Origin: Geobacter sp. FeAm09
GTDB lineage: Bacteria > Desulfobacterota > Desulfuromonadia > Geobacterales > Pseudopelobacteraceae
DNA length: 64,000 bases
NCBI RefSeq assembly: GCF_008330225.1
Contig: NZ_CP042466.1
Location: forward strand, 1,932,501 to 1,996,500
Reading direction: 5' to 3'
Shown here: in pieces, positions 32,660 through 32,810 of the stretch
How positions within the stretch are numbered: the stretch's first letter is position 1
How the letters are laid out: each line of letters starts with the position of its first letter
The notes under the pieces: generated by a model
What the model saw: only the letters and a program-made list of their open reading frames with translations
What the model was told of the DNA's origin: nothing
The model's database searches: none
Program-made: the position numbers and the translations under genes

Positions 32660-32696
32660 AAAAAAAGAGCCTCGCCACGCATGCGGCAAGGCCCTT
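32660..32696 (-). terminator. Attenuation terminator of the pyr leader
   Basis: On the minus-strand RNA, AAGGGCCUUGCC (complement of 32696-32685) pairs with GGCGAGGCUCUU (32676-32665) over 12 positions with G-U wobbles, followed by seven U (32666-32660). It ends 26 bases before the pyrR start, so it can block the whole operon. Confidence 0.88.
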
Positions 32697-32728
32697 CGAT
32701 ATATGATTCGCGTCGGTCATTCGTGTAA

Positions 32729-32760
32729 CCCTTGCCAACCTCTCGGGCTGGATTAAAAGG
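32729..32760 (-). promoter_or_regulatory. PyrR-binding RNA element (anti-antiterminator)
   Basis: The leader RNA contains CCUUUUAAUCCAGCCC then GAGAGGUUGGCAAGGG. This matches the PyrR-binding loop known from Bacillus: CC-U stem, UCCAG and GAGAGGUU conserved segments. Its GGCAAGG can instead pair with CCUUGCC in the terminator's 5' arm, forming the antiterminator. UMP-bound PyrR would hold this element and allow termination. Confidence 0.85.
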
Positions 32761-32781
32761 TAGTTGCTATGTCGTTGGATG

Positions 32782-32810
32782 AGACTACCACTCTCGGCGG
32801 CCAAGGTCAA
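32782..32810 (-). promoter_or_regulatory. Promoter of the pyrR operon
   Basis: On the minus strand TTGACC (32810-32805) and TAGTCT (32787-32782) are 17 bases apart. Transcription from about 32775 would give a leader of about 140 bases containing the PyrR site and terminator. Confidence 0.65.

Follow-up and report, generated by a model that had tools for sequence, protein, structure and literature searches.

PyrR attenuation is a textbook case of protein-controlled RNA refolding and is established in Bacillus. The leader before the pyrimidine operon of Geobacter sp. FeAm09 raises the question of whether the same protein and a similar loop act here through RNA refolding, through the ribosome, or through both. 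In the 64,000-nucleotide stretch of DNA that we analysed (the window), a first-pass annotation had described a Bacillus-type PyrR attenuator before pyrR. The attenuator layout is borne out: the leader is the best match in the genome to the Rfam PyrR model, RF00515, and a corresponding leader is found in all 74 genomes of the family that carry pyrR. The label fits this layout but not strictly the loop, which has 5 nt (CGAGA) against 6 nt in all 57 Bacillota loops that could be typed. That annotation also overlooked a start codon at Shine-Dalgarno spacing behind the loop, conserved in the phylum of this genome and in Nitrospirota but not in Bacillota. The stretch before the operon is very probably a PyrR-controlled off-switch, and from its sequence we consider it likely that pyr transcription is attenuated here through a PyrR-binding loop that also contains the site where ribosomes bind for a leader ORF.

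The leader lies on the minus strand upstream of pyrR (32098-32634), between that gene and a glyoxalase-like gene (32831-33262). All the parts named earlier were located, with correct coordinates, and run from 32810 to 32658 in the order promoter, PyrR-binding loop, 15-bp terminator and U7. The sequence offers a sigma-70-type promoter, with a -35 hexamer TTGACC (32805-32810) and a -10 hexamer TAGTCT (32782-32787) separated by a 17-nt spacer. The pattern TTGACC-17/18-TANNNT occurs at a similar position in 67 of 74 homologous leaders and a looser pattern in 71; a generic promoter scan of the window does not have the leader promoter among its calls. The PyrR-binding loop, or anti-antiterminator (CCUUUUAAUCCAGCCCGAGAGGUUGGCAAGGG, 32729-32760), is identified by its RF00515 match and by compensating changes, and comprises a lower stem CCUUU/AAGGG, a UAAU bulge, an upper stem CCAGCC/GGUUGG and the pentaloop CGAGA; its predicted fold has -10.0 kcal/mol, with a z of only -1.2. 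The 3′ strand of the lower stem, AAGGG (32729-32733), is also the putative Shine-Dalgarno sequence of a putative leader ORF of 29 codons (32631-32720), whose ATG follows 8 nt later. This ORF traverses the terminator, and its stop codon shares bases with the first codon of pyrR (ATGA). The loop also contains the antiterminator 5′ arm GGCAAGG (32730-32736), complementary to a 3′ arm CCUUGCC (32685-32691) within the terminator 5′ arm, a pairing that is strong in the window's own genus only. The intrinsic terminator stem-loop (32664-32697; z -5.8 against 200 shuffles) measures 15 bp, not the 12 bp first given, and the first three U of its U7 tract (32660-32666) are also paired in the stem.

RF00515 matches the window leader end to end over model positions 1-115 with 45.6 bits (E 2.5e-5 for 341 nt and all Rfam families). 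Across the whole 4.1-Mb genome the leader has an E value of 7.2e-5 and the next match 0.31; the weaker matches (E 0.31, 0.82 and 4.2) were taken as noise. The covariance-model scan suggested at the outset thus gives a significant full-length match that nevertheless falls below the gathering score of 54 bits, at which RF00515 has no match in the window. By Rfam's rule, the window leader is a sub-threshold homologue and not a listed member. The gathering score is reached by 0 of 76 genomes of the family and by 19 of 395 genomes of the phylum. Perhaps it shuts out the whole family through the 5-nt loop; the model has six unpaired loop bases. The cut-off thereby conceals the PyrR leaders of one whole family. 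The published loop consensus ARUCCAGAGAGGYU, as given in the accessible portion of PMC7430163, is likewise not matched by the window, which reads AGCCC-GAGAGGUU and is one base shorter, with the CGAGA pentaloop. Two features of the functional class are present, an intrinsic terminator between the PyrR loop and the first gene, and PyrR encoded directly downstream of the leader.

We then compared the leaders of the window genome's own family (f1; 76 genomes). At E<=0.1, RF00515 matches 67 of these genomes, 64 times at pyrR. A pyrR gene was found in 74 genomes (not in G068, among others), and within the roughly 300 nt inspected upstream of it all 74 have a PyrR loop and a predicted terminator. 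Ten of these leaders were located by sequence and not by Rfam; that of G004 has a damaged 5′ arm of the loop and was matched by its own pattern, and in G004 and G011 the RF00515 match lies away from pyrR. The covariation alignment holds 59 pentaloop leaders (58 distinct), omitting 15 of the 74 (13 hexaloop leaders, L175 and L177). Across loop and terminator, 96.2% of pair cells are standard pairs, a level attained in 0 of 500 shuffles. For each of the six upper-stem pairs, one or more sequences have both partners replaced (the closing pair goes from C-G to A-U in six), and cells changed on both sides number 72 against 19.1 in shuffled alignments. By these paired cells and compensating changes, the PyrR loop is a conserved RNA structure; the antiterminator pairing lacks covariation support across the family. 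A covariance model built from the f1 leaders scores the window at 99.2 bits, with the window itself in the training set. That the leader is not a real feature is ruled out by its presence in 74 of 74 cases together with the compensating changes.

Rarity of such leaders outside Firmicutes, implied by the first-pass annotation, is contradicted by their distribution. RF00515 matches at E<=0.01 occur in 76 of 395 genomes of the phylum (at least 80% complete) and in 59 of 252 genera, and at E<=0.001 in 99 of 119 genomes of a Bacillota sample and 36 of 58 of a Nitrospirota set; their occurrence outside Bacillota is therefore not in itself new. The loop is present in 70 of the 73 phylum matches outside f1, of which 66 were parsed by script and four by typed motifs. 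Three were dropped: L211 is the second match of the genome of L223 and fell outside the slice used, and L257 and L258, in which no loop was seen, are probably false. For Nitrospirota, the phylum of the genome of L095, the 36 genomes with a match provided 30 loci, 26 of which were parsed; with L323, from the genome of L082, this makes 27 leaders, or 20 clusters at 75% identity, and four more were parsed later. Bacillota were represented by two sets, the first of 30 leaders from 17 genomes (3 by typed motifs), the second of 30 leaders, the highest-scoring ones for which loci were available, drawn from a further 30 genomes of the 119-genome sample; in this set L301 and L302 look identical. Typing by stem pairing places CGAGA pentaloops in f1 except genus g7, and in families f4 and f6 of the same class. 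All 57 typed Bacillota loops are hexaloops; three further leaders are ties and two were left untyped. Two genomes of the phylum carry two RF00515 matches each (L193/L218 and L211/L223), possibly marking a second regulated operon as in Bacillus.

The closing strand of the loop, AAGG(G), resembles a Shine-Dalgarno sequence, and 61 of the 74 f1 leaders carry ATG, GTG or TTG as a start codon 5-9 nt behind it, 59 of them ATG. Further downstream, start codons fall at 10-15 nt in 7 of 74 and at 20-25 nt in 1 of 74. All six leaders of the window's own genus have ATG at the identical offset. The 5-9 window was derived from f1, and the other leaders had already been looked at before the formal count, which yields a start codon at this distance in 52 of 70 leaders from other families of the phylum and, taking one per genus, in 39 of 53 genera. 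With one leader per family, the count is 24 of 31 (shuffled mean 5.8, maximum 12 in 200 shuffles); counts made inside one family are not independent observations, the leaders there being related to each other. Nitrospirota have the start codon in 25 of 27 leaders (shuffled mean 4.6, highest 10), or in 28 of 31 with the four parsed later, three of which carry it. Bacillota have it in 10 of 60 overall, with 4 of 30 in the first set (6.5 expected) and 6 of 30, none of them ATG, in the second. It is also seen in two Methylomirabilota leaders and in one labelled Actinomycetota, and a Calditrichota genome with two leaders has it in L322 and lacks it in L101, the one before pyrR. At offsets of 4-9 nt, the 57 leaders outside f1 use ATG 32, GTG 13 and TTG 12 times. 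Such interchange fits a start codon, whereas a fixed RNA motif would not be expected to vary in this way. Labels for the start codon on the rows of a PyrR tree (48 yes, 26 no, 6 unlabelled), made with a cruder parser, were left out of these counts; at least L056 seems mislabelled there, since L183, the leader of an equally long contig, has ATG at offset 9.

No start codon stands at 5-9 nt in 13 of the 74 f1 leaders, all from genus g7, and in 18 of the 70 outside f1, including 11 of 13 from family f31 and both from family f2. In all 13 g7 and both f2 leaders, a GTG at -1 overlaps the last G of AAGG, and in none of these 15 does a stop interrupt the frame from it up to 14 nt before the terminator. 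The f31 leaders (for example L202, L212 and L226) have ATG at 0, directly after AAAGG, in 12 of 13. For these three groups, GAGG of the PyrR loop is the only possible Shine-Dalgarno sequence, and openness does not clearly set frame 0 apart from the other two frames. The g7 leaders (L146, L147, L153, L160, L163, L174, L176, L178, L179, L181, L184, L185 and L187) and those of f2 (L195 and L206) have hexaloops, and several of them would encode partly similar peptides (VQQFQPHIQEGLSAHGRRDPF...) from the GTG at -1.

The frame behind the start codon was scored over codons beginning more than 14 nt before the terminator 5′ arm, this distance being the reach of the ribosome; the codons available per leader are few (median 4). 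Without a shuffled baseline openness looked weak, frame +2 being open in 51 of 57 leaders against 57 of 57 for frame 0; such a baseline was later supplied. In the phylum outside f1, with one leader per genus, frame 0 has no stop in 42 of 42 (32.6 expected, sd 2.6; 214 codons), whereas the numbers open in frames +1 and +2, 30 and 37 of 42, lie close to the 33.3 and 33.8 expected. For Nitrospirota, the corresponding figures are 23 of 24 in frame 0 (15.9 expected, sd 2.2; 127 codons) and 14 and 19 of 24 in frames +1 and +2 (16.8 and 16.5 expected). Within f1, 60 of 61 leaders have an open frame 0 (49.5 expected), but 57 of 61 also have an open frame +1 (51.0 expected). The leader ORF is thus a prediction that looks translated. 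The leader peptides are not conserved overall, so what counts seems to be the arrival of a ribosome at the terminator.

The best-surviving alternative is the classical Bacillus mechanism on its own, in which PyrR-UMP would stabilise the anti-antiterminator, GGCAAGG:CCUUGCC would otherwise block the terminator, and the AUG would be incidental. The antiterminator pairing described in the first-pass annotation is predicted for the window, where the duplex has -15.0 kcal/mol and beats the binding loop in the pre-terminator fold. It is strong in the window's own genus, with a mean of -13.6 kcal/mol and a mean z of -1.75, and in 4 of 6 leaders it reaches p<=0.05 relative to shuffled loops; there it could suffice alone, and the leader ORF may therefore be dispensable. 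In the rest of the family and the phylum, the pairing is no better than shuffled. The 55 remaining f1 leaders without g7 average -7.9 kcal/mol (z -0.07; 2 of 55 at p<=0.05), the 13 of g7 average -4.0 kcal/mol (z 1.01; 0 of 13), and 65 leaders from the rest of the phylum average -7.5 kcal/mol (2 of 65 at p<=0.05). Covariation of this pairing across f1 is nil, with 73.6% paired against 73.5% shuffled. Setting cognate against non-cognate pairings of the same family is uninformative, the cognate one being better in 37 of 74 f1 cases and in 22 of 39 for the others. Against shuffled loops, the two Bacillota sets have a mean z of -1.25 and -1.37, Nitrospirota one of -0.37 and the leaders of the phylum outside f1 one of 0.03; Bacillota differ from the latter two taken together (Mann-Whitney p 2.6e-8; 51 vs 90 leaders), though taken one by one many Bacillota leaders do not stand out either (p<=0.05 in 16 of 51). 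These scores cover leaders in which a terminator was detected (51 of 57 Bacillota, 25 of 27 Nitrospirota and 65 of 66 phylum leaders) and refer to the loop 3′ half paired with the terminator 5′ arm, so that a differently built antiterminator would escape them. Antiterminator and start codon have opposite distributions; the genus of the window is the exception and combines the two. Refolding alone would leave the other leaders of the phylum unexplained, together with the conservation of the start codon and, outside f1, of the open frame, and we regard it as unlikely.

A second alternative accepts translation of the leader ORF but has it serve translation of pyrR, by termination-reinitiation at ATGA or by protection of the mRNA, and not the terminator. 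The overlap of leader stop and pyrR start codon in the window would suit such a role, yet leader-ORF ends vary: within the genus, L119 stops before the pyrR start and L115 and L116 stop after it, and elsewhere the ends range from before the terminator to beyond it. The constant feature is that the frame comes within the ribosome's reach of the terminator, in 57 of 57 leaders outside f1 and 60 of 61 in f1, which makes this alternative quite improbable. Least credible of all, and by our estimate very improbable, is that the NUG is an untranslated element of RNA sequence or structure recognised by PyrR or by RNA polymerase. In its favour, the distance between NUG and loop varies by no more than about 5 nt; against it, ATG, GTG and TTG interchange, the flanks vary, and outside f1 one frame alone avoids stops.

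The reading that we favour, a loop holding the ribosome-binding site of a leader ORF, would work as follows. At high UMP, PyrR-UMP would occupy the loop and AAGG would stay paired, keeping ribosomes off the leader ORF; with no leader ribosome, the terminator would form and transcription would end before pyrR. At low UMP, the loop would open and a ribosome could initiate at the AUG 8 nt downstream, move onto the terminator 5′ arm and so prevent terminator formation. Within the genus of the window, the RNA antiterminator GGCAAGG:CCUUGCC could act likewise without a ribosome, so that both routes may coexist. PyrR in these groups may thus work by excluding ribosomes, and not only by Bacillus-like RNA refolding. 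The basis of this reading in the sequence is the loop, terminator and promoter, their conservation and compensating changes, the enriched start codon, the stop-free frame, and the weakness of the antiterminator elsewhere. PyrR binding, UMP sensing, masking of the Shine-Dalgarno sequence and coupling are carried over by analogy from the B. subtilis system, as described in the available text of PMC7430163, and from general knowledge of attenuation. Translation of the leader, with its presumed effect on termination, is likewise something we infer.

More broadly, we lean towards two classes of PyrR attenuator. The Bacillota class would act by RNA refolding; in the second, comprising this phylum, Nitrospirota and perhaps others, PyrR would gate the entry of ribosomes to the leader ORF and the ribosome would be the antiterminator, with the window's own genus, which has both, as a candidate intermediate. 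If the leader-ORF layout is functional, the same protein and a similar loop act through translation outside Bacillota, with PyrR as a gate on ribosome loading. Coupling of transcription and translation would then decide the outcome, pyrimidine supply would be tied to ribosome availability, and a proposal made for one species would become a class spread over phyla.

That proposal concerns the pyr leader of Thermus ZO5, for which Van de Casteele et al. (J Bacteriol, 1997) reportedly suggested PyrR attenuation without an antiterminator, a translating ribosome preventing the terminator. As is said of the Thermus type, the predicted leader ORF in the window starts beside the PyrR loop and reaches the terminator; the type is also said to lack an antiterminator, and here the own genus has a plausible one while the rest of the phylum has none above shuffles. 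The Thermus case is a single-species proposal, whereas the layout described here is shared by numerous families from two other phyla and, in the genus of the window, comes with an antiterminator as well. In Mycobacterium smegmatis, Fields and Switzer are said to have described in 2007 translational repression by PyrR, with a loop that overlaps the first gene's own Shine-Dalgarno sequence. Overlap between PyrR loop and ribosome-binding site is common to both, but here a separate leader ORF and a terminator precede pyrR.

With the B. subtilis pyr attenuators, in the available text of PMC7430163, the leader shares a bulged binding loop with UCC..GAGAGG, a terminator with U-tract, and pyrR as the first gene; the window's own genus shares the antiterminator as well. 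It differs from the Bacillus type in scoring below the Rfam gathering score, in its 5-nt instead of 6-nt loop, in the start codon at Shine-Dalgarno spacing and, outside its own genus, in an antiterminator without support; B. subtilis has three attenuators (same portion of PMC7430163) and the window genome one match. In the G. metallireducens genome paper, Table 2 as available to us lists a 35-nt sequence conserved in Geobacter upstream of pyrRBC-carAB (Gmet_P1768, GSU1269.1) among "possible promoters and riboswitches"; the available part of the paper does not label it as a PyrR site, terminator or leader ORF (PMC2700814). Judged from its place and length, this sequence is probably the counterpart, in relatives, of the PyrR loop described here for the same operon. 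A BMC Genomics survey of 2013 counts 211 pyrR motifs in 255 genomes, and the table available from it has Desulfovibrionales as the sole delta lineage (PMC3766115). In the available portions of the open-licence PMC literature (including PMC3766115, PMC2700814, PMC9788692, PMC7430163, PMC545781 and PMC2965389), we saw no account of a leader ORF mediating PyrR attenuation in these phyla.

The pyrR product itself is a PyrR attenuation protein/uracil phosphoribosyltransferase of 178 aa (NF003549.0, 244.7 bits; cut-off 138). Its nearest solved structures are PyrR proteins, and alignment with the best of them needs a single one-residue gap, a 12-residue segment included. This segment presumably lies in the region with RNA-contacting residues that Savacool and Switzer treated in 2002. 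Among the matches listed, the closest named relatives include Geobacteraceae and Desulfuromonadaceae. A recent acquisition of pyrR from Firmicutes is unsupported, Geobacter-like rows (at most 84% identical to the window PyrR) falling outside Bacillota in an 80-row tree that is midpoint-rooted, lacks the window PyrR as a row and bears only weakly on acquisition.

Downstream on the minus strand lie pyrB (aspartate carbamoyltransferase, 31153-32085), pyrC (dihydroorotase, 29649-30926) and carA (carbamoyl-phosphate synthase small subunit, 28153-29274). A DUF488 gene of the inactive N3 subclade (29271-29633) is wedged between pyrC and carA. From pyrR to carA, the gaps are 12, 226 and 15 nt, followed by a 4-nt overlap of the DUF488 gene with carA. 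A radical-SAM gene, a gene of unknown kind, carB and greA follow on the same strand. The 10-gene run proposed earlier could not be confirmed, as the five closely spaced genes are followed by gaps of 183 and 346 nt past carA. Between pyrB and pyrC lies a dispersed repeat with inverted ends (CCCTCA...TGAGGG; 30960-31130, minus strand), with a fragment at 28029-28072; a genome-wide scan gives 42 matches to the repeat, of which 18, counting the repeat itself, exceed 140 bits.
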